The notes below the pieces were generated by a model. It was not told where the DNA came from and did no database searches. It saw only the letters and a list, made by a program, of their open reading frames with translations. From Piscinibacter sp. (lineage in GTDB: Bacteria > Pseudomonadota > Gammaproteobacteria > Burkholderiales > Burkholderiaceae_C), in assembly GCA_019635485.1 (NCBI GenBank), contig JAHBZL010000001.1, positions 62,001 to 126,000 of the forward strand: a DNA stretch of 64,000 nt, written 5' to 3'. Below are positions 7,222 through 28,297 of the stretch, in pieces. Each line of letters starts with the position of its first letter. The first letter of the stretch is position 1. Position numbers and translations under genes: made by a program.

Positions 7222-7614
7222 ATGAAACGAGTCTTCCTTCTCCCCGCCCTGCTGCTGGCGGCGGCCCTGCCAACGGCACGTGCGGCCACGCCGGCCGAGC
7301 TGCTGGCCGGCTACGGCGCTACCGCGCAGGCAGCCGCCGACCCCGACCGCGGCCGGGCCTTCTTCGCCACGCGCGGCACGCGAGACTGGAGCTGCGCCTC
7401 GTGCCACGGCAGCACGCCGGTCCAGACCGGCAAGCATGCCGCCACCGGCAAGGCGATCCTGCCGCTCGCGCCGGCCTTCAATGCCGAGCGTTTCACCGAC
7501 GCGGCGAAGACCGAGAAATGGTTCCGCCGCAACTGCAACGACGTGCTCGGCCGCGCGTGCAGCGCGGGCGAGAAGGCCGACGTGCTGGCCTGGCTGATGA
7601 CGCTGCGTCCCTGA
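7222..7614 (+). CDS. sphaeroides heme protein (SHP)-like cytochrome c (DUF1924)
   Basis: A 130-residue periplasmic protein with a signal peptide (about residues 1-21) and one c-heme motif, CASCH (58-62). The C-terminal part WFRRNCND...RACS matches the SHP family, in which an Asn replaces the usual Met ligand next to a disulfide. Asn104 with Cys105 and Cys113 is the likely ligand and disulfide set here, inferred from its distance to the C-terminus. Known SHPs bind oxygen and NO when reduced, but their role is unsettled. An AAGGAG site precedes the ATG. It is followed by the diheme cytochrome and cytochrome b genes, the classic SHP context. Confidence 0.87.
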   Translation: MKRVFLLPALLLAAALPTARAATPAELLAGYGATAQAAADPDRGRAFFATRGTRDWSCASCHGSTPVQTGKHAATGKAILPLAPAFNAERFTDAAKTEKWFRRNCNDVLGRACSAGEKADVLAWLMTLRP

Positions 7615-7633
7615 GCGCCGACGGAGCCCCCCA

Positions 7634-8083
7634 ATGAAGAAGACCCTCGTGCTGCTCGCGGCCACCGCCGCGGCCGTCCTCGCACACGCCGACGGCGGCG
7701 CGCGCCGCGTCGCCCTGCTGCCCGCCTACACGCAGGAATGCGGCAGCTGCCATGCACCGTTCCCGCCCGGGCTGCTGCCCCGGGAATCCTGGCAGCGGTT
7801 GATGCAGAACCTGCCGCGCCACTTCGGCACCGACGCGTCGCTCGACGCCGCGGCCCAAAGCTCGATCTCGGACTGGCTGGCCAGCCGCGCCTCCACCCGG
7901 ACACGCGCCGCGCCGCCCGAGGACCGCATCACCCGCAGCGACTGGTTCCGCCGCGAACACCGCGAGGTCCCGGCGGCCGCCTGGGGCCGCCCCGCGGTCG
8001 GCAGTGCCGCCAACTGCGGCGCCTGCCACGCGGGCGCGGCGCAGGGCGACTTCGACGAAGACCAGGTGCGCATCCCGCGCTGA
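7634..8083 (+). CDS. diheme cytochrome c (DHC), partner of SHP
   Basis: A 149-residue exported protein with a cleavable signal (about 1-20) and two c-type heme motifs, CGSCH (36-40) and CGACH (128-132). Size, spacing and position match the diheme cytochrome DHC that passes electrons to SHP. The segment ENLPRHFGTDASLD-like region between the hemes is typical of the family. It starts 19 bp after SHP with a GGAG site and is followed 18 bp later by the cytochrome b gene, so the three form one electron-transfer unit from the quinone pool to SHP (family knowledge plus inference). Confidence 0.87.
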   Translation: MKKTLVLLAATAAAVLAHADGGARRVALLPAYTQECGSCHAPFPPGLLPRESWQRLMQNLPRHFGTDASLDAAAQSSISDWLASRASTRTRAAPPEDRITRSDWFRREHREVPAAAWGRPAVGSAANCGACHAGAAQGDFDEDQVRIPR

Positions 8084-8101
8084 ACGTTCAGGAACCCGGC
8101 C

Positions 8102-8797
8102 ATGACCACTTCCTCCCCCCGCGCCGTGCTCGTCTGGGACGCGCCGGTGCGTGTCTTCCACTGGCTGCTCGTCGCGAGCTTCGCCGGCGCCTGGCTCACC
8201 GCCGAGAGCGAGCGCTGGCGGCTCGTGCACGTGACGCTCGGCTACACGGTCGGCGGCCTGCTGCTCTTCCGCCTGCTCTGGGGCCTGATCGGCACACCAC
8301 CCGCCCGCTTCGCGAACTTCGTGCGTGGCCCGCAAGCGGCCTGGCGCTACCTGCGCTCGCTGACCGGCCCGCGGCCGGAGCACCACACCGGGCACAACCC
8401 GGCCGGGGCACTGGCGATCGTCGCCCTGCTGCTGTTGATCGGGGTCACGGTCGCCACCGGGTGGGCGGCCTACAGTGAACTCGGCGGCGAATGGCTGGAA
8501 GAGTGGCATGAAGGCGCCGCGAATGCCTTGCTGGCGGTGGTGGTCGTGCACCTGCTGGGCGTGTTCGTCGGCAGCTGGGTGCACCGGGAGAACCTGGTGC
8601 GTTCGATGCTGACCGGCCGCAAGAAGGCGGTACCGGACGCAGGCATCCGCCGCGCCCACGGCGCGCTGGCCGCCGTGCTGCTGGCCGCGGTGCTGGGCTT
8701 CTGGTGGCTGCAGTGGCAGTCGGCGCCGGCGGCCGGGGCCGCGCAGTCCGAAGGTGTGTCGGCCGCGCGAGCCAAGCATCACGACGAGGACGACTGA
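8102..8797 (+). CDS. cytochrome b561-family membrane protein
   Basis: A 231-residue integral membrane protein with four b-type transmembrane helices plus a fifth hydrophobic segment near residue 185. Candidate heme ligands are His20 in RVFHWLLV, His43 in LVHVTLGY and histidines in the VVVVHLLGVFVGSWVH helix. It probably takes electrons from quinol and passes them to the diheme cytochrome encoded just upstream. The C-terminal tail is short and polar (HHDEDD-like). The gene is spaced 18 bp from DHC and 12 bp from the response-regulator ATG, so the operon continues into regulation. Confidence 0.87.
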   Translation: MTTSSPRAVLVWDAPVRVFHWLLVASFAGAWLTAESERWRLVHVTLGYTVGGLLLFRLLWGLIGTPPARFANFVRGPQAAWRYLRSLTGPRPEHHTGHNPAGALAIVALLLLIGVTVATGWAAYSELGGEWLEEWHEGAANALLAVVVVHLLGVFVGSWVHRENLVRSMLTGRKKAVPDAGIRRAHGALAAVLLAAVLGFWWLQWQSAPAAGAAQSEGVSAARAKHHDEDD

Positions 8798-16775: not shown

Positions 16776-17198
16776 TCAGCGGATCAGCAGCGTCGGCGTG
16801 TGGCAGCCGGCGAGCACCTTGTTGGTGACCGAGCCGAGCACGAGGTTGCCGAGCGTGCCGTGGCCATGCGAGCCCATCACGAGCAGATCGAAGTCCTGCG
16901 CGCCGGCCACTTTCGCGATCACATCGGCCGCGTGCCCGACCTTGCTGACATAGGTGGCCTCGATGCCCTGCTTCTTGAAGAAGGTCCGGATCGGCTTGAA
17001 GACCGCCTCGCTGGTCTCGGCGTAGTAGTCCTTCAGCACGGCACGATCCATCACGGCCGCCGCGCGCGCCGGCACCGCCGCCACGACGTTGAGCACCGTG
17101 TAGTCGTGCAGGTTGCCCAGCCATTCGTCGTGCGCCGCCAGGTAGGCCAGCATGCGCTTCGTGTACGAGCTGCCGTCGGCGGCGATCAGGATCTTCAT
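16776..17198 (-). CDS. universal stress protein (UspA family)
   Basis: A 140-residue single-domain USP. The N-terminus MKILIAADGSSYTKRML carries the ATP-site Asp. The C-terminal GSHGHGTLGNLVLGSVTNKV matches the G-2x-G-9x-G-[ST] ATP-binding pattern. Proteins of this type bind ATP and help survival under stress or anoxia. It lies 81 bp downstream of the porin gene on the same strand and may be read from the same transcript or from its own promoter. Confidence 0.93.
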   Translation of the reverse strand: MKILIAADGSSYTKRMLAYLAAHDEWLGNLHDYTVLNVVAAVPARAAAVMDRAVLKDYYAETSEAVFKPIRTFFKKQGIEATYVSKVGHAADVIAKVAGAQDFDLLVMGSHGHGTLGNLVLGSVTNKVLAGCHTPTLLIR

Positions 17199-17279: not shown

Positions 17280-18287
17280 TCAGAAGCGCCAGCGCACGCC
17301 GGCGGCCACCGAGGCGCCGCGGGTCTGGCCGCGGACGCGGTCGTCCATGCCGACGGCATACACGTCGGTGACGCTGTCGTACTGGTAGAGGTAGGCCGCG
17401 CTGACCGTTGTGTGGCGCCGGTCCACCGCCGGCCCCTTGGCCGTGGTGTGGGCGAACTGCAGGTGCAGGTTCCCTGGCCCGACCGGCGCGATCAGGCCGC
17501 CCGAGACGATCTTGCTGTCGACATCGAGACCGCCGTCGTTGGTCTGGGTGTACTGCCCGAACAGCCTCGCCCAGCCGAAGTTGTAGGTGGCGCCGAGCTG
17601 CACGGCGGTCTCGCGGGTCGGATCGATGAAGTCGTCGATCTCGACGCGCTGTGCGGCCAGCGACACGGACAGCAGCCCACGCGACGCAACGATGCTGCCG
17701 CCGGTCAGGTCGCCTTTCTTGTCGGATTCGCCTTCGGCGTACATCAGGTTGACGGTCACGCCTTCGAGGTTGGGCGTCTGGTAGCTGATGCCGCGGTCCC
17801 AGTAGAAGTCGCCCTGCACCCCTTCGAGGCTGCCGCTGGCGAACACGTGTCGCACCGCCGGCGAGAATGCCACCGAGTTGCCGAGCGCATTGAACCGTGT
17901 CGTCGCATCGAACAGGAAGGTCTGCAGCCGCCCGATGCGCAGCAGGCCGTAGCGGCTGCCCAGCGAGACGAAGGCATTGCGCGACAGGTTCGGATCGTCG
18001 TCGTTGCGCCCGCCCTTGAAGTCCTGGAAGCGGATGAACGATTCGAGCGTGATACCGGGAGTCCAGCCGCCTTCCAGACCGTACTTCGCGTTGACGCCCA
18101 CGAAGCTGGCGGTCATCGAGTTGCTGTTGTAGCGGTGCGTGCGGAACTGCCCGCTGGGTTCGAAGCGACCGTAGGAGAAGTCGAGCACGCCGTAGGCGGA
18201 GTAGTCGAGCTGCGCATGGGCGGCCATCGCCGAGCCGCCGAGCAGGGCCGCGAGCAGGACGCCACGCAGGTTCTTGGTCTTGATCAT
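17280..18287 (-). CDS. outer-membrane porin (Gram-negative type)
   Basis: A 335-residue protein with a signal peptide (MIKTKNLRGVLLAALLGGSAMAAHA, cleaved near 26) and alternating beta-strand sequence to the end. The C-terminal residue is Phe (GVRWRF), the usual signal for BAM-dependent insertion. The loop FNALGNSVAFSP and pattern of Tyr/Gly strands fit trimeric betaproteobacterial porins. It starts 10 bp downstream of the JDVT-CTERM protease stop on the same strand, so it may belong to the surface cluster. Pore specificity is not evident. Confidence 0.87.
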   Translation of the reverse strand: MIKTKNLRGVLLAALLGGSAMAAHAQLDYSAYGVLDFSYGRFEPSGQFRTHRYNSNSMTASFVGVNAKYGLEGGWTPGITLESFIRFQDFKGGRNDDDPNLSRNAFVSLGSRYGLLRIGRLQTFLFDATTRFNALGNSVAFSPAVRHVFASGSLEGVQGDFYWDRGISYQTPNLEGVTVNLMYAEGESDKKGDLTGGSIVASRGLLSVSLAAQRVEIDDFIDPTRETAVQLGATYNFGWARLFGQYTQTNDGGLDVDSKIVSGGLIAPVGPGNLHLQFAHTTAKGPAVDRRHTTVSAAYLYQYDSVTDVYAVGMDDRVRGQTRGASVAAGVRWRF

Positions 18288-18297
18288 GGGGTGGTTC

Positions 18298-18744
18298 CTA
18301 GCGCAAGAATCGGGGAAGCACGTCGGCGAGAACGGCGGCCAGCCACGCGGCGTTCAGCACGGCATGCAGCAGGACGGCATTGCGCAGGCGCCGCGTGCGG
18401 CCGTACACGGCACCGACCAGCAGCGCGGGCAGGGCGACGGCCAAGGCCGCGAGGTCGCCACGCACCAGTGCATGCACGAGTCCGAACGCGATGGCGCAGG
18501 CGATGTTCGCGGCCACGGCGCGCATCCGGCGCCGCAGCAGCGCCTCGTGCAGCCCCGCGCGCAACACGGCCTCCTCGGCCAGCGGTGCCACGGCCAGCAG
18601 CACCAGGACCCGCAACGGCGCCACCTCCGCGTGCAGCGCCACCGCGGCCACCGCCGCGACGAACAGTACGGCGGCCGCGACCCACCGGCCACGGCGCGGA
18701 CCCGCGGCCCCGGCGCCGGGCGAGTGCGCCAGTGCCAGACTCAT
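18298..18744 (-). CDS. mrtJ: JDVT-CTERM system intramembrane glutamic protease (CPBP family)
   Basis: A 148-residue polytopic membrane protein of the CPBP/Abi (CAAX-protease-like) family. Catalytic motifs are present: PLAEEAVLR with Glu57-Glu58 and Arg62, FGLVHAL with His91, and LLHAVLNAAW with His127 and Asn131. The ATG at 18744 overlaps the stop of the JDVT-CTERM protein gene by 4 bp (ATGA). In known genomes a CPBP protease of this kind is paired with a JDVT-CTERM substrate and is thought to process its C-terminal sorting signal, so the substrate is almost certainly the upstream protein. Confidence 0.88.
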   Translation of the reverse strand: MSLALAHSPGAGAAGPRRGRWVAAAVLFVAAVAAVALHAEVAPLRVLVLLAVAPLAEEAVLRAGLHEALLRRRMRAVAANIACAIAFGLVHALVRGDLAALAVALPALLVGAVYGRTRRLRNAVLLHAVLNAAWLAAVLADVLPRFLR

Positions 18745-21700
18745 GAGCGCCGCCGCGCGCGCCGGCGCGCGAACAGCACCAGCGCCGCCAGCAGCACCAG
18801 CGTCCACAGCGTCGGGTCGGTCGCCGATTCGCCGCTCGCGAGCGAGCAGCCGCCGCCGGAGGACAGGTCGGCCGGCGGGTCGCCATGGCCGCTCAGCGCG
18901 ACGTCGGCGGAAGCAGGGTCGGCGTCGGTGGTGACCCGCAGGGTTCCCGTCGTGTCGCCCTCGGACTGCGGCACGAACGCGACCGAGAGCGTGCACTCGC
19001 CGCCGGCCGGCAGACCGAACGGCAGCGTCACCGGGCAGGTGTTGGCGGACACGGTGTACGGCCCGGTCACGGTCAGCGCCGTCACCTGCAGCGTGCCCGA
19101 GCCGGTGCTGCGCAGCGTGATCTCGCTGGGCAACGACTGCGTGCCGACGCGCGTGTCGTCGAAGGCCAGGCTTGCCAGCGACAGCGCCATGCCCGGGCTC
19201 GGCCCGCCCAGGCCGGTGCCGGTCAGCGAGAGCTCCGGCGGGAAGCTGCCCGTGGACGCCACCTGCACCGTGGCACTGCGCGCTCCGGCGGACGAGGGCG
19301 CGAAGCGCACGTCGACGCGGCAGCTCTGCCCCTCGAACAGCGCCTGGCCGACCTGGCAGGTGCCGCCCGCCACGGAGAACGACGCAGCGCCGCTGCCGAC
19401 CGCATTCAGCACCGTCAGCGTCACGCCGCCCGGACCCTGGTTCAGCAGGGTGGCCGACTGGACGCCGGAGACGGTGCCGGTACTGATCGTGCCGAAGTCC
19501 AGCTGCGTCACGACCGGCGACCACACCAGCACGGGGACCGCCGCCAGACTGCCGCGGCCAAGCAGCGCAGCGGTGTGCGGCGACCCGGCGGCGTTGCTGG
19601 TCACGCGCAGCGTGCCGGTGAAGTCGGTGCCGGCCGACGGCGGTGCGAAGGCGATCGCGATGTCGCAACCCGCGCCCGGCGCCAGCGTGCCGGTGCAGGA
19701 GGTCGCGCTCGCGTCGCTGAAGGCGGTGCCCTCGACCGCGATGGCGCTGGTCAGCAGGTCGGCCGTGCCGGTGTTGCTCAGACGGATGGTGCGGCTCGGG
19801 TAGAAGCCGCCCACGGTCTGGGTGCCGAAATCGATCGACCCCGGCGTCAGCGTGACCACCGGCACCGGCACCGGCACGCCGGTCCCCGACAGCGTGATCG
19901 TCGCCGGGCCGTTGCTGGCATCGGAGAGGATCGTCAGTGATGCGCTGCGCACGCCCAGCGCGCCCGGCCGGAACGTCATCGTCACCGTGCACTGCGCACC
20001 GATCGCCAGCGGCGTCGAGGTGCTGCAGGTGCCGCCGCGCTCGTAGTCGGCCGCAGCGGTTCCGGTCAGGTTGAAGGCCGAGAAGTTCAGGGCCAGGTTG
20101 CCGGAGTTCTGCACCGTGATCGGCAGCACGCTGGAACCGCCGAGCTGGGTGTCGGGGAAGCTCAGTGACAGCGTGCTCAGGTCGATGCGGCCCTGCGGGG
20201 CGGGCGTCGCGGTGCCGTTCAGCGTCACCGTCTGGGGGCTGCCCGGGGCCGTATGCGTGATCGTCAGCGTCGCGTTGCGGGTGCCGGCCGCGGGCGGGTT
20301 GAACTGGACCACCAGCGAGCAGTTCGCCCCGGCGGCCAGCACGCCGCCGACGGTGCAGCCGTTCGTGGCGTCCAGCGAGTAGTCGGACGCTGCCGTGCCG
20401 CTGAAGGCCAGGTTGCTCAACGTCACGCTGCCGGCGCTGCGGTTCGTCAGCAGCAGGGACGAGGTGGTCGGCGAGCCGACCACCGCCGCCGCGTTGACCA
20501 CGCTGGCCGACTGGGCGATCGGCAGCAGGGCATTGCCGGTCAGCTGACCATTGACGTTGGAGGGTGCCGGGTCGCCGAGCGTGCCGGCGAACGTGAAGGT
20601 CAGGTTGCCCTGGCGCGGACCCTCGCCGCTGCCGAGCACCGGCTGGAAGCGCCACGTGATCGTGCAGCTACCGCCGCCGCCGGGCACCGTGCGGGTCGCA
20701 CAGCTCTCCCCGCCGGGCGCGATGTTGAAGTCGGTTGTGTTGGCGACGCTGTAGGTGATGTCGCGAGTTCGGGCGTTGGTGATGGTCACCTGCCGCGTCT
20801 GCGCCCCGGTCTCACCGATCACGGTGTCCGGGAAGGCCTGGTTCGGGAACACGACCACGGGCTCCGGCAGCGCGACACCGGTGCCGGACAGCGTGATCGC
20901 CGGCAGCACGTTGCTGGCGTCCGAGTTGAAGCTCAGCGTGGCGCTGCGCGCGCCGGTGGCGGCGGGCGTGAAGGTTCCGTTGACCGTGCAGCTGTTGCCT
21001 GGCGTCACCGTCGCGCCGGCGCAGGTGCCGCCGAACGAGAAGTCGCCCGGATGGCTGCCGCCGACGGTGAACGGGTTGGCCGAGAACACCAGCGAGGCAT
21101 CGCCGTTGTTGGTGAGCGTGATCGCTCCGGGCAACGCCTTCGGCACCCCCACCTGGGACTGCTGGAAGTCGAGCGTGCTGACGTTGCTGGCGATGACGGG
21201 CACGGTCCCGGTGCCGGTGACGGACACCTGGGCCGGACTGGACACGTTCACCCCGTCGTGGCCGATGTTCACCTGTCCGACCACGTCGCCTGCCGCCAGC
21301 GGCGTGAAGGCCACGACCAGCGTGCAGGTCCCGCCACCGGCCGCCACGTTCGACGTGCCTGCGGTGGTGCAGGTGTTGCCCGCACCCAGCGTGAAGCGCG
21401 CCGAGGAGAAGGTGATGCTGGTGAGGTCCAGCACCGCGGCACCGTTGTTCGTGATCGTGTAGGTGGTCGTCGCCGATGATCCGACCTTGGCCGAGACGGT
21501 ACGGCTGCTCGGCGTGATCGCGAAGGAGGCGGTCTGCCCGGTCCCCGTCAGCGTGGCGATGGTCTGTGCCGTCCCCGGCGACGAGAGCGTGGCGCGCAGC
21601 GTGGCATTGCGCGAGCCGGCCAGCGACGGCGTGAAGGCCACGGTGATGTTGACGGTACAGGCGGACCCGCCGAGGGTCGTCGCCGCGGGCAGGTTGCCGG

Positions 21701-22211
21701 CGCTGCACCCGGTGCCGGTGGCCGTGTGCGACTGGACCGAGTAGTCGGCGGACCCGGTTCCGGCGAAGGACAGCGAGTAGCTCGCGGCGGCGCCGCGGTA
21801 GTTCGTCAGCGTGACGGAGAACGAACTGGTCGTGGTGCTGTTGACCTTGGTGGCGAGGCTTCTCGACACCGACGTCGCGTTCCCGTCGCGCACGTCGACG
21901 AAGTAGGCCCAGACCTCGGCGGCGTTGGCGGCGCTGAAGTTGGCCGACTGCATGTTGGAGATGCCGGTGAAGGTCCCGGCAGCATTGACCCGCGTGCGCA
22001 GCTGGGTCGAGTCCGCCATCCACGATTCGCCCAGTCCGAGCGTCATGTTGTTGGAATTGTCGGCGACCGTGTTCGCGATGTTCGGCCCGAGGCCATGGCA
22101 GCCGCTGCAACCGTTGGTCGTCCACACCTGGGCCTGGGCCGGCAGTGCGGACCACAGACCGCCCAGCAGCACCGCCGCCGCGCCCACGCGGCGCAGTGCC
22201 GCCCATCGCAT
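18741..22211 (-). CDS. surface cytochrome c with choice-of-anchor-D repeats and JDVT-CTERM anchor
   Basis: A 1,156-residue exported protein. It has a signal peptide (about 1-28) and one c-heme motif CSGCH at residues 35-39 in a small cytochrome domain. About nine Ig-like choice-of-anchor-D repeats of roughly 100 residues follow, each ending in a motif such as LSGTG or LTGTG. The C-terminus is GGGCSLASGESATDPTLW, one hydrophobic helix and a basic tail, which matches the JDVT-CTERM sorting signal. ATG 22211 is used, but an AGGAGG site lies 8 bp before an in-frame TTG at 22220, which could be the true start. It is coupled to its protease gene and should be displayed at the cell surface. Confidence 0.9.
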   Translation of the reverse strand: MRWAALRRVGAAAVLLGGLWSALPAQAQVWTTNGCSGCHGLGPNIANTVADNSNNMTLGLGESWMADSTQLRTRVNAAGTFTGISNMQSANFSAANAAEVWAYFVDVRDGNATSVSRSLATKVNSTTTSSFSVTLTNYRGAAASYSLSFAGTGSADYSVQSHTATGTGCSAGNLPAATTLGGSACTVNITVAFTPSLAGSRNATLRATLSSPGTAQTIATLTGTGQTASFAITPSSRTVSAKVGSSATTTYTITNNGAAVLDLTSITFSSARFTLGAGNTCTTAGTSNVAAGGGTCTLVVAFTPLAAGDVVGQVNIGHDGVNVSSPAQVSVTGTGTVPVIASNVSTLDFQQSQVGVPKALPGAITLTNNGDASLVFSANPFTVGGSHPGDFSFGGTCAGATVTPGNSCTVNGTFTPAATGARSATLSFNSDASNVLPAITLSGTGVALPEPVVVFPNQAFPDTVIGETGAQTRQVTITNARTRDITYSVANTTDFNIAPGGESCATRTVPGGGGSCTITWRFQPVLGSGEGPRQGNLTFTFAGTLGDPAPSNVNGQLTGNALLPIAQSASVVNAAAVVGSPTTSSLLLTNRSAGSVTLSNLAFSGTAASDYSLDATNGCTVGGVLAAGANCSLVVQFNPPAAGTRNATLTITHTAPGSPQTVTLNGTATPAPQGRIDLSTLSLSFPDTQLGGSSVLPITVQNSGNLALNFSAFNLTGTAAADYERGGTCSTSTPLAIGAQCTVTMTFRPGALGVRSASLTILSDASNGPATITLSGTGVPVPVPVVTLTPGSIDFGTQTVGGFYPSRTIRLSNTGTADLLTSAIAVEGTAFSDASATSCTGTLAPGAGCDIAIAFAPPSAGTDFTGTLRVTSNAAGSPHTAALLGRGSLAAVPVLVWSPVVTQLDFGTISTGTVSGVQSATLLNQGPGGVTLTVLNAVGSGAASFSVAGGTCQVGQALFEGQSCRVDVRFAPSSAGARSATVQVASTGSFPPELSLTGTGLGGPSPGMALSLASLAFDDTRVGTQSLPSEITLRSTGSGTLQVTALTVTGPYTVSANTCPVTLPFGLPAGGECTLSVAFVPQSEGDTTGTLRVTTDADPASADVALSGHGDPPADLSSGGGCSLASGESATDPTLWTLVLLAALVLFARRRARRRS

Positions 22212-22293
22212 GATCGTCAAGGTCTTCCCCTCCTGTCGGGCTCGCCCGGTGATCCGGGAAGCTGCCTCCTCGCAGACCTCGCGAGGTGTTCGT

Positions 22294-23628
22294 TCAGACG
22301 CAGTCCACCACCCGGAACTCCACCCGCCGGTCCAGCGCGTCACGCTGGTCGTCCGTTCCCAGGCCGACCAGCGCCTCGCGCGAGCCGACGCCGGTGGCGG
22401 TCAGGCGCGTGCTCAGCGAGCGGTTGCTGCGCTCCAGCATGCGCTGCACGGCCTCGGCGCGCTGGCGCGACAGGCGCTCGTTGACGCTCGCGCTGCCGGT
22501 GCGGCTGGTGTGGCCGACGATGCGCACGCAGGCATCGGCGCGGCCGGTCTGCTGCGCCAGCGCGTCCAGCCAGACCTGGTACTGCTGCGGCAGGTCGCCG
22601 ATCTGGTTGAAGGTCGTGCGGCCCGGCTGGAACAGGATCTTCACCGGCAGCCGCTTCAGCTCGAGGCCGGACTCCACCAGCTTGCCGAAGGCATCGCGCG
22701 CCTCGTCCTTCTGCCCGAGCTGCCAGCTCGTCAGGTACAGGCCGTTGAGCACGCGCAGGTCGCCCGGGTCGGCCAGCACGGAGGCCTCCTTGTAGAGGCG
22801 GTGCGCTGCCGGGATCTTGCCCTCGCCGTAGGCCATGATCGCCTCGTTGACGACCGCCGCGGCCGGCAGGTGCGCCAGGTAGTCCGGGTCGGCCGCATCG
22901 CCGATGCGCGTGTTGATCTGGCACGAGTTGATGTAGCCCAGCACCGTCTTGTCCTTGTGCCAGGTCGGGCTGTCGGCGTAGTACTTCAGCGGCTCGGGGT
23001 TCACCGAGTCGACCGTCGCGCGGTCGATCTGCTTGGCGATCACCTTGCCGCTGCGCAGGTCGATCAGCGTCAGCCAGACGCGGAAGGCGTCGGGCTTGGT
23101 GTCGATCGCCCGCTCGACGTTGACCGGCGTCAGCGTGCCGATCAGCAGCAGCGGCTGCGTCGCGAGCGTCTGCCGCGTCAGCGGCTGCACCTGCAGGTTG
23201 CTGTACTTGGCCTTGACGATCGCCTCGAGCTGCTCGCCCATGCGCGCCGTGCTGACGGTCTGCGCCCCGGTGTTGGCGTCGATCAGCGGGTCGACCACCA
23301 GAGAGCGGCGCTCGCCGCCGACCTGCGCCTGCGCGAGCAGTTCGCGGCCGGCGCGCGCCACCGCGTCCTCGAACTTGATCGGCGCCGGCGCGACGAATTC
23401 GCGCTCGGCCGCAGCCGGCGGGGGGGTGATCGCACGCGCCGCCGGCACGGCCTGGGGCGCAGCGACCTGCGGGGCGGGTGCCGCCGCCACGCGGGCGGCG
23501 GGCGCCGGGGTGGCGGCCGGGGCCGGCGTGGCCACCAGCGGCGTCGTGCCGGTGGTCGTGCAGCCGGCCAGCAGGGCGGCCAGGATCAGGGTGGGTTGCC
23601 AACGACGGCGGTGCTCGGTCTGAGACAT
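22294..23628 (-). CDS. OmpA-family lipoprotein
   Basis: A 444-residue lipoprotein with lipobox LLAGC (Cys23). An Ala/Pro-rich tether to about residue 75 is followed by a central domain with RRSLVVDPLIDANTGAQT. A TPR-like part comes around YGEGKIPAAHRLYKEASVL, and the C-terminal OmpA/MotB peptidoglycan-binding domain includes IVGHTSRTGSASVNERLSRQ. The FQPGRTTFNQ strand begins the OmpA domain. It should anchor to the outer membrane and the cell wall. Similar proteins often accompany Ser/Thr kinases with DUF4384 domains, which fits the kinase gene upstream here. Confidence 0.88.
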   Translation of the reverse strand: MSQTEHRRRWQPTLILAALLAGCTTTGTTPLVATPAPAATPAPAARVAAAPAPQVAAPQAVPAARAITPPPAAAEREFVAPAPIKFEDAVARAGRELLAQAQVGGERRSLVVDPLIDANTGAQTVSTARMGEQLEAIVKAKYSNLQVQPLTRQTLATQPLLLIGTLTPVNVERAIDTKPDAFRVWLTLIDLRSGKVIAKQIDRATVDSVNPEPLKYYADSPTWHKDKTVLGYINSCQINTRIGDAADPDYLAHLPAAAVVNEAIMAYGEGKIPAAHRLYKEASVLADPGDLRVLNGLYLTSWQLGQKDEARDAFGKLVESGLELKRLPVKILFQPGRTTFNQIGDLPQQYQVWLDALAQQTGRADACVRIVGHTSRTGSASVNERLSRQRAEAVQRMLERSNRSLSTRLTATGVGSREALVGLGTDDQRDALDRRVEFRVVDCV

Positions 23629-23669: not shown

Positions 23670-25895
23670 TCATCGTTTTGGATATACGGGGTCGGGCAGC
23701 GGCGAGCTGCACCCCAGGAAGGTGGTCATCAACGCGGCCAGCGCCGGGTCGGCCGCGACCCGCTCGGCGACCCGATCACGCGAGATCAACGCATTCGGCA
23801 TCGACGCATTCGTCGCGATGTCGGCGGTGCCGCCGCACACGTGCGTCGCCGCGCGACCCGGGGTCAGCACGGTGGAGTCCCAGTCGAAGGTCGGTCCCAT
23901 CGAGACATGGCAGGTGCGGCAGGACGCGCCGATCACCTCGCGGTAGAAGCGGGCCGCGCCGGCCGTCTGCGCTTCCGCGGCCTGCCAGGGCGCCGGTACG
24001 TAGGCCTTGTTCAGCGTCGTGCCGCCGCCGGCGTACCAGCCTTGGATCAGCCGGCTGGTCGGCGTGTTGTCGTTCGCTTCCGTCGCGCGCACCAGCTGGT
24101 TCAGGTCGTGGATGGACTGGCTCTGCGCTGCCTCGCCGAGCTGCGGGTCGGACGAGAACAGGTAGTTGCCGGTGTCGAAGGCGAGGAAGCCGGAGCCCAG
24201 GTAGGGCGACGGGTTGCCCTTCTCCGGGAACTTGCCGTTGTACTGCGTCCCGCCGTGGCAGGCGACGCAGGTGCCGGGCATGTACTTCTCGCCGCGGCCG
24301 TCCAGGTTGACCGAGGGCAGCAGCGAGCCGTCCGGCGCGAAGGTGAGGAACTTGGTGAACGGCTGCCCGCCGTTCACGCCGGGCGTCGTCGACCACTCCA
24401 TCGCGACGCAGGCGACTTCGCGCTCGGCGGCCAGCGCGGTGGCCATCACCTCGTCGACCTCCTCCTGCGTCTGACCGTCCGGACCCGGGTGGTTGCAGAC
24501 GACGAAGGCGATGTTGTCGGGCGCCGTCTGCGTCGCGCGCATGAAGCGCACGAGGTTCAGGTCCATCTGGTTGATGTACTTGGCCGACACCTCGACGTTG
24601 CTGCCGTTGTGCGGCTTGAACTGGTGCTGGCGCTCCCAGTCGTCCAGCGTGATCGGGTCGATCATGCGGCCCTGCGCGTCGCAATCGCCGACGGCGCCGA
24701 TCGCGCGGTAGTACATGCAGGCCGACAGCGGCGTGTCCTTGCCCTTGAACGCCAGGAATTGGTCCGAACCCGGCAGGCTGTTCGATTCGACGTTCGGCAG
24801 CGGCACGATCATGCGGCCGCGCACGTTACCGTCCGGGCCGCTGGCAACCATCTTCACGATCCGCGGCCGGCTGTTGGCCAGCTGGTGCGACAGCTCGACG
24901 GGCTTGCCCGACGCGTAACCGCCCGCCCCGGGCGCCGGCACGTCCAGCAGGGTCGAGTAGCCGTCGCAGCGCACCTGCAGCTTCAGCGCCGCGAGGGCCG
25001 GGACGGCGGCATCGATCGCGTAGTCGCCGAATCGGTTGACGCGCTGGACGGGGGACAGGACCGTGCCGTCGGGCAGCTGCACCTGCACGCTGGCGGAGCG
25101 CTGCAGCGCGAAGTAGTCGTTCTGCGTGCCGCAGACGCCACCGTCGGCGAACCCGATGTGGCCGAACAGGCGCAGGTTGTTCCCCGCCGCCGGCACCGGG
25201 AACACCCGCCGGATGCGCGCTTCGGTGCCGCCGGTGAAGCTGTCGCAGTTCGCGATCGGCACGCCCTGCGAAGTCGAGCAGCGGATCTGGAAGCTGTCGC
25301 CGCTGCGCAGCTTCGGCAGGCTGACCTCGCCGGTCAGGTCCGTGACCCCGCTGAACACGGTGTCGCCGCTGGTCTGGTCGATGACCTGCACCACGGCATC
25401 GGGCAGGTAGACCTGCCGCGGCACGGCCGTCCCGCCACCAGGAGGCGTGAAACTCGTGTCATCGGTGGAGATGAAGCGCAGGCGCATCGCGCTGCCGGTG
25501 AAGTCGGCCACCGCCGGCGCCGTGTGCGACACGGGAGGACGGACCGGTGCCGGCGTGTCCAGTGCATCGGACGAGACGGCGTACTGCTGCTCGACGTAGC
25601 CGCCCTTGCCGTCCGAGACCATCACGTAGGCGAAGTGCAGCCCGGGCCCCTCGGGCAGGGTCCAGACGGTCTCGTTGGAATTGCGGTTCTCGATGCGGCC
25701 CGCGGTCACGCGCCACTGGTACTGCAGCGCATCGCCGTCGGCATCGCTCGCCTCGACGCGCAGGTAGGTCTTCTCCGGGCCGCTGTCCGCCTCGGTGCCC
25801 GTGCCGCCGCCGCAACTGGCCAGCATGATGCCGACCGCGGCGGCACCGGCGAGGACCTGCAGGCGTTGCGACCGCAACGATTGACCACCGTTCAT
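23670..25895 (-). CDS. multidomain diheme c-type lipoprotein
   Basis: A 741-residue lipoprotein with lipobox MLASC (Cys28). The N-terminal part is an Ig/PKD-like domain (DADGDALQYQWRVTAGRI). A long middle region with carboxypeptidase-regulatory-like features follows. The C-terminal third carries two heme c motifs, CVACH (543-547) and CRTCH (659-663). ATG 25895 is chosen because GGGAG lies 8 bp upstream; the ATG at 25910 has no such site. It is 41 bp upstream of the OmpA lipoprotein gene. Likely a surface or outer-membrane electron carrier. I know no named family for the full architecture. Confidence 0.82.
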   Translation of the reverse strand: MNGGQSLRSQRLQVLAGAAAVGIMLASCGGGTGTEADSGPEKTYLRVEASDADGDALQYQWRVTAGRIENRNSNETVWTLPEGPGLHFAYVMVSDGKGGYVEQQYAVSSDALDTPAPVRPPVSHTAPAVADFTGSAMRLRFISTDDTSFTPPGGGTAVPRQVYLPDAVVQVIDQTSGDTVFSGVTDLTGEVSLPKLRSGDSFQIRCSTSQGVPIANCDSFTGGTEARIRRVFPVPAAGNNLRLFGHIGFADGGVCGTQNDYFALQRSASVQVQLPDGTVLSPVQRVNRFGDYAIDAAVPALAALKLQVRCDGYSTLLDVPAPGAGGYASGKPVELSHQLANSRPRIVKMVASGPDGNVRGRMIVPLPNVESNSLPGSDQFLAFKGKDTPLSACMYYRAIGAVGDCDAQGRMIDPITLDDWERQHQFKPHNGSNVEVSAKYINQMDLNLVRFMRATQTAPDNIAFVVCNHPGPDGQTQEEVDEVMATALAAEREVACVAMEWSTTPGVNGGQPFTKFLTFAPDGSLLPSVNLDGRGEKYMPGTCVACHGGTQYNGKFPEKGNPSPYLGSGFLAFDTGNYLFSSDPQLGEAAQSQSIHDLNQLVRATEANDNTPTSRLIQGWYAGGGTTLNKAYVPAPWQAAEAQTAGAARFYREVIGASCRTCHVSMGPTFDWDSTVLTPGRAATHVCGGTADIATNASMPNALISRDRVAERVAADPALAALMTTFLGCSSPLPDPVYPKR

Positions 25896-26033
25896 GCTCG
25901 AAACTCCCATACGACGACCGCACCGCCTATTGCTTTGCGGCCGATCATGGTAGTGGTGTACCCGACCCTGGACACCCCCAATATTGGCGGTAGCCCGGCT
26001 TGGGTTTTCCCGCCTTGGAACCGTCGCCTTCCG

Positions 26034-26678
26034 TCAGCGGCACCCGAGGGCACGGAAGCGCTCGGACAGCGCCGCGCTGGTGTCACCCAAAGACATCTGC
26101 TGAATGATGCGTGCGCAGGCCGCTTCGTTGGGGGCCGGCGCGGGGGGCGGCTTGGCCACGGGCGGCGGCGCCGGGGCCGGAGGCGGCTTCGCCACGGGCG
26201 CCGGCTGGACTTCGAGCGTCGCCGACTGGGCGCCGAAGCGGCCGTCGCAGGGCGCGATCGCGGCGAGGCAGAGGCTGCCGCCGGCGCCGGCACCATCGAA
26301 GCCGCGCGCGAACACGCCATCGTGGAGGCGCCAGCCGGCCGCCGCCAGGTCCTGCGGCGCCGAGCTGACGAACGCCAGCAGGTTCCACTTGCCGGGCTCG
26401 AGCGCCGGGCCGGACCAGCCCGCCGGCCGGATCTCCACGCCGCTGTCGACGCGTGCCGCCGCGCCATTGCCGGCGGGGGCCCACATCAGGAGTTCGCGGC
26501 TGCCTTCCTTGTAGGCCAGCAGATAGAGATGCCCTGGCTGGCTGGTGCTCAGCGACAGCCGCGGAGCGTCGCGTCCCAGTGTGGCCGTGGCCGGACCGCG
26601 CAGGCCGACCTGCCAGGCCGGGTCGCGCCCGGCCAGCCACTGGGCGAAGGCTTCGGCCGCCGGGAGTCCGCTGGAGCA
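26034..26678 (-). pseudogene. DUF4384-like C-terminal remnant of the kinase gene
   Basis: An open stretch of about 215 codons without a credible start. It reads [19 protein letters not shown], then a Pro/Ala-rich spacer (two PPPAPAP repeats), and ends FRALGCR. The first part resembles the DUF4384 domain that ends many bacterial Ser/Thr kinases. It sits immediately 3' of the truncated kinase on the same strand but in another frame, separated by a foreign gatA fragment. I read it as the detached C-terminal part of that kinase. A GTG- or ATG-started short protein from 26486 is possible but would lack half the domain. Confidence 0.65.
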
Positions 26679-26887: not shown

Positions 26888-28111
26888 TCACTTCAGTCCG
26901 GTCCGCGCCGGCGCCTCCGCGGGCGCCGCGTCGGCCGGTGTGAGGCTGGCGGGCATGGCGGTCCGCGGCGGCGGGGGCGCAGCCATCGTCGGACGTGCCA
27001 CGGTCGCCGGCGGGGCGGCCGTGCGTGGCGCCGTCCGGGCGGCAGTGGGCAGTGCGGCGGTCGCGCCGTGTGCCGTGACCGCGCCTCGCGTACGGATCAC
27101 CGTGGCGTCCGGATCGACGGGCCGGGTGGCGGCCGGCGAGGCCCCGGCGATGGGACCGAGGCCGAGCTCGTCCCGCAAGGTGGCGATGTCGGGCGTGCGC
27201 TGCTCGGGCCGCACGGCCAGCGCGCGGTCGATGGCCTCGAGGAACGGCGCGCTGTAGCGCCCGGCGGCGGCCTCGGCCAGCGGCACCCAGGAATCCGCCA
27301 ACATGCGCCCGACCGACGGCGGCGGCGTCTTGCCGGTGATCGTCCAGTACACGACCGCGGCGAGCGCGTAGACGTCGGTCCACGCACCCTGCTTCATGCC
27401 CGGCACCTCGGCGTACTGCTCGACCGGCGCGTAGCCCGGCTTCAGGATCACCGTCAGCGCCTGTGTCATGTCGCCGATCACGCGGCGCGCCGCGCCGAAG
27501 TCCAGCAGCAGCGGCCGGCCGCTGCCGGCCAGCAGCATCACGTTGTCGGGCGCGATGTCGCGGTGGAAGCACTGCTCGCGGTGGATCACCTCCAGCGCCT
27601 CGGTCAGCGCGGCGAGCAGCTCCATGATCCAGGTCTCGTCCGGCGGCTGCCCCATGCCGCGCACCGTGTCGCGCATCGTCGTGCCCTCGTAGAAGGGCAT
27701 CACCATGTACGCGGTGCCGTTGGCCTCCCAGAAGCGGAACACCTTGACGAGCGACGGGTGGTCGAAACGCGCGAGCAGCTTGGCCTCGTTGATGAAGCTC
27801 TTCAGCCCGGCCTCGAAGGTCTCGCGATGGCGGTCCGAGCGGCAGCTGATGCGCGTCGCGCCGACCCGCGTGGCGATCGACGAGGGCAGGTACTCCTTCA
27901 GCGCGACGTCGCGCTCGAGCGAATGGTCCCAGGCCCGGTAGACGATGCCGAAACCGCCTTCGCCGATGCGGTGCGTGAGCTCGAACTCCCCGATGCGCGT
28001 GCCGATCGGCAGCGCGAGCGTGTCCTCCGAGTGGCGCGCGGGGGGCGGCGCGGCCGCCTGCGTGCGCGTCCGGATGACGGTCGGATCGTCGGGGTTCGGG
28101 TCCAGGCTCAT
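26888..28111 (-). CDS. Ser/Thr protein kinase, truncated before its transmembrane segment
   Basis: A 407-residue kinase. The glycine loop is [12 protein letters not shown], the catalytic Lys is Lys72 (VALKEYLP), HRDIAPDN is at 183-190, DFG is at 204-206 and GYAPVEQY is the activation segment. An Ala/Pro-rich linker ends GLK and a TGA stop at 26888-26890. In the same frame the next codons read [19 protein letters not shown], a clear transmembrane helix. The stop may thus be a TGG-to-TGA mutation that cut off a membrane anchor and sensor domain. TVIRTR occurs at 11-16 and 337-342, flanking the kinase domain. It heads the minus-strand surface cluster. Confidence 0.85.
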
Positions 28112-28297
28112 GGTCAACGGGCTTCGCGGCGGGCGCCGCGCCTCGCCGACGACAGGATCGACCACGAGGAGTGGACGATTCTGCCGGCGAATTGGACCAC
28201 GCACCATCGCCCGTCCGGCGGAAGCCGCAAGCGTGACGGAAGTCGCGCCGCGGGAGTGTTCGTGGCGCCACGCGCGCCGGCCTTAGCATTGGCGCCC

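Follow-up and report, generated by a model that had tools for sequence, protein, structure and literature searches.

The minus strand of a 64,000 nt stretch of Piscinibacter sp. contig JAHBZL010000001.1 (assembly GCA_019635485.1, positions 62,001 to 126,000; the whole of this stretch is called the window) encodes a protein, here termed the stalk protein, in which a heme domain, choice-of-anchor-D repeats and a JDVT-CTERM tail follow one another, and directly after it MrtJ, an intramembrane protease. On balance, the stalk protein is rather probably an electron carrier of the cell surface that has a single heme, is tethered by its C-terminus and is matured by MrtJ, as judged from the sequences. 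Proteins of the same kind recur in relatives beside a flavin/thiol redox system, which suggests an overlooked cell-surface electron route.

The open reading frame of the stalk protein starts with an ATG at window position 22211 and its stop codon ends at 18741. An earlier note on this DNA had ended the span at 22220; the length of 1,156 aa given there stands, but the ATG lies 9 bases downstream of that position. The architecture described in the note, a heme domain with about nine choice-of-anchor-D repeats and a JDVT tail, was borne out. The only CXXCH motif is CSGCH, nine choice_anch_D stretches are recognized with 398.4 bits (NCBIfam), and the JDVT-CTERM model NF033191 scores 42.1 bits at the C-terminus (cut-off 27). 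By eye, the N-terminus resembles a signal peptide. The tail consists of a GGGCSL cysteine signature, a hydropathy peak at residues 1130–1148 and the basic end RRRARRRS; the MYXO-CTERM model TIGR03901 (NCBIfam) gives 17.3 bits on this tail, below its cut-off of 20.

A hidden Markov model search for the tail and its protease had been set as a check, and both score above cut-off, with MrtJ matching the equivalog model NF033192 at 82.0 bits (cut-off 75). The 4 bp overlap of the CPBP protease gene with the stop codon of its neighbour was likewise confirmed, as mrtJ starts within the stop codon of the stalk gene (ATGA). MrtJ has the FxxxH motif of this protease family at residue 87, together with EExxxR at residue 57 and HxxxN at residue 127. 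The last two are motifs named in the available part of PMC11980579. The window genome (G000; 5.0 Mb assembly, 84 % complete) has one MrtJ and one JDVT tail above cut-off, the latter with 49.0 bits in the genome search and a runner-up at 21.8 bits. Neither cut-off was reached in any of 14 control genomes, and the JDVT and MrtJ matches thus exceed chance.

A profile of 19 related heme domains, from which the diheme protein of genome G460 is left out, was compared with the PDB and found class I cytochromes c (best E 6.3e-16), among them domain 2 of PgcA (8qjg, E 4.9e-10). Compared profile to profile, the five heme domains of the window type match the 14 others with 94 % probability. When nine related domains were tested with Cytochrom_C and Cytochrome_CBB3, three (L156, L142 and L140) exceeded the Cytochrome_CBB3 cut-off of 27 bits; the window domain reaches 15.2 bits with this model, and a phmmer search of it against the PDB returned one irrelevant match only (E 0.25). 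Among the related domains L138, L148, L149, L153, L202 and L208 the heme motif alternates between CXXCH, CX3CH and CX4CH.

The idea that fusion of a heme motif to a JDVT tail is unique to the window genome was rejected. In the family, 47 JDVT tails are present in 36 of 299 genomes. Twenty of these tails, in 19 genomes, belong to proteins with a heme motif in their N-terminal part, namely CXXCH in 16, CX3CH in G483, and CX4CH in G441, G469 and G495; all 47 rows were translated, three with cut or unresolved N-termini (G493:C317, G656:C107 and G611:C131) were counted as having no heme motif, and CX4CH was sought only in proteins with choice-of-anchor-D repeats, so that further cases may have been missed among the remaining tails. 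Choice-of-anchor-D repeats are present in 19 of the 20, with 2 to 9 each as counted with a profile seeded from a single repeat of the window stalk; the G460 protein differs in its spacer and contains two heme motifs. Of 23 family tail proteins with such repeats, 19 have a heme motif; the remaining four are G264:2609729, G637, G493 and G611:C131, the last two being among those with cut or unresolved N-termini. Across the order, JDVT tails above cut-off occur in 16 of 399 genomes. This search gave 39 matches, of which 31 were translated (six below cut-off and two above were left out). CXXCH is found in one of the 31 tail proteins each from the window genome and from G264, of the same genus, and in none of the 25 translated from other families of the order. 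The earlier note called the fusion unusual, which holds for the literature searched, where no cytochrome with a JDVT tail was found (most subscription papers lie outside its coverage), but not for the family, where it is common. Separately, G264 encodes an LPMO_10 protein (153.8 bits) that also has a JDVT tail and an extended Pro-Ala linker (L044:3059-4105). A MrtJ above cut-off (G264:C1:2623938-2624210) adjoins this gene, and a tagged LPMO (lytic polysaccharide monooxygenase) and a tagged cytochrome share one genome.

Tail and protease are distributed together. Among the 299 family genomes, 31 have both, 5 have the tail only, 4 have MrtJ only (E 1e-15 or better) and 259 have neither (Fisher p about 1e-32, relatedness uncorrected). 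A MrtJ match lies within the fetched locus for 16 of the 20 cytochrome tails, and in G264 and G548 MrtJ is roughly 9–10 kb from the cytochrome tail. A looser search revealed a MrtJ-like gene adjoining the tail in G506 (33.7 bits) and G655 (39.1 bits), scores not above those of generic matches, so that position beside the tail alone distinguishes these genes; G442, G583, G656 and G462 have sub-cut-off matches only (38.8 to 43.8 bits), away from their tails. The suggestion that the substrate has ‘its own protease’ is true of this assembly but fails as a rule. In G580 no MrtJ match is present at the corresponding site, where a porin frame directly follows the stalk gene, and the sole match of that genome (63.3 bits, below the cut-off) is on a different contig, adjoining another JDVT gene. 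In G016, G446, G529 and G611, a single MrtJ above cut-off stands against at least two tails; at most five tails were seen per genome. Strict dedication of MrtJ to one substrate was rejected on these five genomes.

The signature cysteine is kept in 71 of 72 translated tails by a pattern test, the exception being G442. The cytochrome stalks of G462 and G656 are 49 % identical to each other and their tails align save for a gap over the cysteine signature; neither of these Cys-less tails has a JDVT-CTERM match. All three Cys-less tails found come from genomes in which MrtJ matches reach no more than 38.8–42.6 bits, against the cut-off of 75, a link that was noticed post hoc, and the losses in G462 and G656 probably go back to a single event. 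Cys-less relatives without MrtJ provide a natural control.

Nineteen of the 20 cytochrome tails lie in two types of neighbourhood, type A with 5 and type B with 14; G583 is the only one in neither. Type B is made up of 13 loci in 13 genomes, with thioredoxin-like, DUF4266-like, DUF3570 and ApbE genes, and DsbD at 9 of the 13, as called with Pfam on representatives and by homology for the rest. The DUF4266-like protein, assigned by pattern and not by a Pfam model, is small and ends in GGGCGCN. One to three [ST]GA[ST] motifs are present in DUF3570 at all 11 listed of the 13 loci. Flavinylation of DUF3570 has been shown for this cluster, with electron transfer called uncertain, in the available part of Meheust et al. 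2021 (PMC8238504). The stalk is a non-standard part of DUF3570 clusters, since only 2 (G462 and G656) of 20 further DUF3570 loci away from JDVT cytochromes, some of them on short contigs, have a cytochrome-stalk match. In the single-contig genome G264, the frame of the cytochrome stalk runs on past its JDVT tail into a thioredoxin-family stretch: choice-of-anchor-D repeats are followed by JDVT-CTERM at residues 726–761 (42.3 bits) and a ResA-like stretch at 779–906 (75.7 bits, below the cut-off of that model). This in-frame fusion suggests that cytochrome and thioredoxin act in one pathway, and MrtJ cleavage would part the two. Between tail and thioredoxin of the fusion (L043:14581-17355) there is an Ala/Leu-rich segment that by eye looks like the former signal peptide of the thioredoxin; it was not flagged by a hydropathy scan.

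The window operon belongs to type A, in which the gene order is kinase, 150 aa protein, diheme lipoprotein-like protein, OmpA-like protein, cytochrome stalk, MrtJ and porin (Table 1). This arrangement is found in the window genome, G654, G610, G680 and G580, the stalks of the last three having been located through their JDVT tails. The diheme protein family (~746 aa, no Pfam match above cut-off) occurs in 5 of the 299 family genomes, exactly the type A five and always within the cluster (E 1e-20 or better). Its profile gave nothing significant against the PDB (best E 0.1), and its predicted structure (mean predicted local distance difference test, pLDDT, 54.3) is too poor for a structure search.

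Table 1. Positions of the stalk protein, MrtJ and neighbouring features in the window
Feature	Position	Strand	Basis
MrtJ, CPBP-family glutamic intramembrane protease, 148 aa	18298..18744	minus	NCBIfam NF033192
Cytochrome c - 9x choice-of-anchor-D - JDVT-CTERM protein, 1,156 aa	18741..22211	minus	ORF (open reading frame), NCBIfam
Monoheme domain, residues 28-118, CSGCH at residues 35-39	21858..22130	minus	
JDVT-CTERM tail, residues 1117-1152: SSGGGCSL signature, hydrophobic helix, basic end	18756..18863	minus	
Porin (Porin_4), 10 bp 3′ of mrtJ; homologue in 5/5 type A loci	17280..18287	minus	
OmpA-domain protein, by eye lipoprotein-like (LLAGC); homologue in 5/5 type A loci	22294..23628	minus	
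Diheme lipoprotein-like protein, CVACH 548 and CRTCH 664	23670..25910	minus	
150 aa protein, no Pfam match; homologous stretch in 5/5 type A loci	26034..26486	minus	
Protein kinase; homologue in 5/5 type A loci	26888..28207	minus	
Universal stress protein; adjoining in only G654 among the four other type A loci	16776..17198	minus	

No DUF3570, ApbE, DUF4266 or thioredoxin is present among the scanned window neighbours, and a DUF3570 homology search of this locus (L074) was also blank. Elsewhere in the window genome there is a distant DUF3570 set (L209, G000:C13:40000-54000) with no JDVT match. Its other contents are a gene for a thioredoxin-like protein, a GGGCGCN end, a fragment resembling ApbE, a protein of 994 aa in which three or more heme motifs occur, and a protein with CX4CH. 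On the plus strand of the window, positions 7222–8797 hold a small cluster of a one-CXXCH protein, a 149 aa two-CXXCH protein and a membrane protein whose weak likeness to hydrogenase cytochrome b (41.6 bits) falls short of the cut-off.

We infer heme loading, lipidation, processing, surface location and electron transfer along the following path. With its signal-peptide-like start, the stalk protein would be exported by Sec; the periplasmic cytochrome assembly machinery, for which Cytochrom_C_asm genes are present in the genome, would attach one heme c at CSGCH, and the JDVT helix would park the protein in the inner membrane. The cysteine of GGGCSL may be lipidated, and MrtJ would then cut behind it, by analogy with MYXO-CTERM and MrtX. 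The folded protein could be carried to the outer surface by the type II secretion system (T2SS), of which GspD, GspE and GspF are found in the genome above cut-offs; surface exposure is proposed from these genes and from the MYXO-CTERM precedent. Because the lipid would hold the C-terminus, the heme would sit at the far end of the stalk, which has about nine immunoglobulin (Ig)-like domains and, at ~4 nm for each such domain, would measure roughly 35 nm. The single heme may move electrons by swinging or tethered diffusion, with an outer-membrane partner as their source or recipient; contact by swinging, like the tethered diffusion reported for PgcA of Geobacter in the accessible part of PMC11520253, is the favoured mechanism. 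Candidate partners in the window are the diheme lipoprotein-like protein, the OmpA-like protein and the porin of the operon, and in relatives the DUF3570 protein, the thioredoxin and the DUF4266-like protein. More doubtful than probable is the fuller proposal of a tethered single-heme outer-surface shuttle on an Ig-like mast, with a MrtJ-dependent C-terminal lipid anchor, that could be plugged into two outer-membrane redox modules, one of diheme lipoprotein, OmpA-like protein and porin, the other of flavinylated DUF3570 and thioredoxin, often with DsbD.

Several observations weigh against a MrtJ-matured surface electron carrier. One heme cannot conduct along a 35 nm stalk, and a partner must therefore come to the heme. 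The window heme domain taken alone is weakly cytochrome-like (Cytochrom_C 16.9 bits, cut-off 21.3, over residues 2–76 of 91); the structure predicted for it is of poor quality (mean pLDDT 67.1), and fold searches with this model gave no significant match. The window operon is without DUF3570, ApbE and DsbD, so the redox context is drawn partly from relatives. The tail of the G583 cytochrome bears the Cys, but that genome has no MrtJ above cut-off and the locus fits neither neighbourhood; G656 has, besides its Cys-less tail, a Cys-bearing JDVT match at a contig edge. Even for MYXO-CTERM the lipidating enzyme is unassigned in the available part of PMC11980579.

A stalk acting as a fixed, periplasm-spanning ruler is disfavoured because the repeat number varies from 2 to 9, and was rejected. 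The same variation is odd for a protein that is anchored at the inner membrane or at the inner leaflet of the outer membrane, with its heme shuttling across the periplasm and MrtJ only trimming it. Such a location is in keeping with the thioredoxin-like neighbour of the relatives and the inner-membrane DsbD at 9 of 13 type B loci, which act at or in the periplasm, as well as with the thioredoxin fused behind the tail in G264. However, the MYXO-CTERM protein TraA reaches the surface according to the accessible part of PMC11980579, and T2SS genes are present; a periplasmic location is rated unlikely. The chances are smaller again that the protein is an adhesin, enzyme holder or sensor whose heme domain is ligand-binding or structural and has no electron-transfer function. 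JDVT substrates elsewhere do include enzymes (LPMO_10, tannase-like, alpha/beta hydrolase), the window operon has a kinase, a porin and an OmpA-like protein, and one of the 20 cytochrome tails (G583) is outside both redox neighbourhoods, but 14 of the 20 are within a thiol/flavin redox cluster and a diheme neighbour is present in all five window-type genomes. It is very improbable indeed that the C-terminus matches simply as any hydrophobic, Arg-rich tail would and that the role of MrtJ lies elsewhere. The JDVT model is just 35 positions long and sub-cut-off CPBP matches occur in 11 of the 14 control genomes, yet the strong genome-search score of the tail, the absence of any control genome above cut-off, the co-occurrence with MrtJ (relatedness uncorrected) and the three cases in which cysteine loss accompanies MrtJ absence all speak against this.

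Reading the stalk protein as a MrtJ-matured electron carrier links a C-terminal sorting system, the substrates of which have been little studied, with a probable role in redox chemistry. A testable partner is gained for the DUF3570/DUF4266 flavinylation system, which its discoverers call uncertain in function in the available part of PMC8238504, and if the outer-surface shuttle were real the DUF3570 pathway would gain an outward electron outlet. Additionally, the system is small, with two genes, and a heme stain could serve to follow cleavage by MrtJ as well as lipidation and surface display.

Both the sorting system and the redox cluster were known before. The two-gene layout is not new either; JDVT-CTERM and MrtJ are described as a conserved pair in the available part of PMC11980579, and the window tail and protease agree with that pair in being above curated cut-offs and adjacent, with frames that overlap by 4 bp. 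The difference is that the window substrate is a probable cytochrome c, a word that occurs 0 times in the main text of PMC11980579, and that the pair lies within a larger conserved operon. With MYXO-CTERM and MrtX, for which C-terminal cleavage and surface anchoring of TraA, both Cys-dependent, were demonstrated by experiment (PMC11980579, as far as available), the JDVT system shares the cysteine motif, hydrophobic helix, Arg cluster and CPBP protease; it differs in having up to five tails per genome as opposed to dozens, in a window tail that scores below the MYXO-CTERM cut-off, and in that JDVT processing is deduced by analogy. DUF3570-DUF4266-thioredoxin-ApbE(-DsbD) clusters (PMC8238504) hold the cytochrome stalk in 13 family genomes, whereas the window locus is without these genes; CTERM, sortase and choice-of-anchor have no mention in the main text of that paper. 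In the literature searched, no heme protein was found as a JDVT/MrtJ substrate in a flavin/thiol cluster or a porin operon. Porin-cytochrome conduits such as MtrCAB combine cytochromes and a porin in one operon. The window operon does so too, a putative resemblance, but no multiheme decaheme partner is seen in it and its porin is of the Porin_4 family. PgcA, as presented in the accessible part of PMC11520253, resembles the stalk protein in its small heme domains spaced by long spacers and in an extracellular location, which for the stalk protein is a predicted one.

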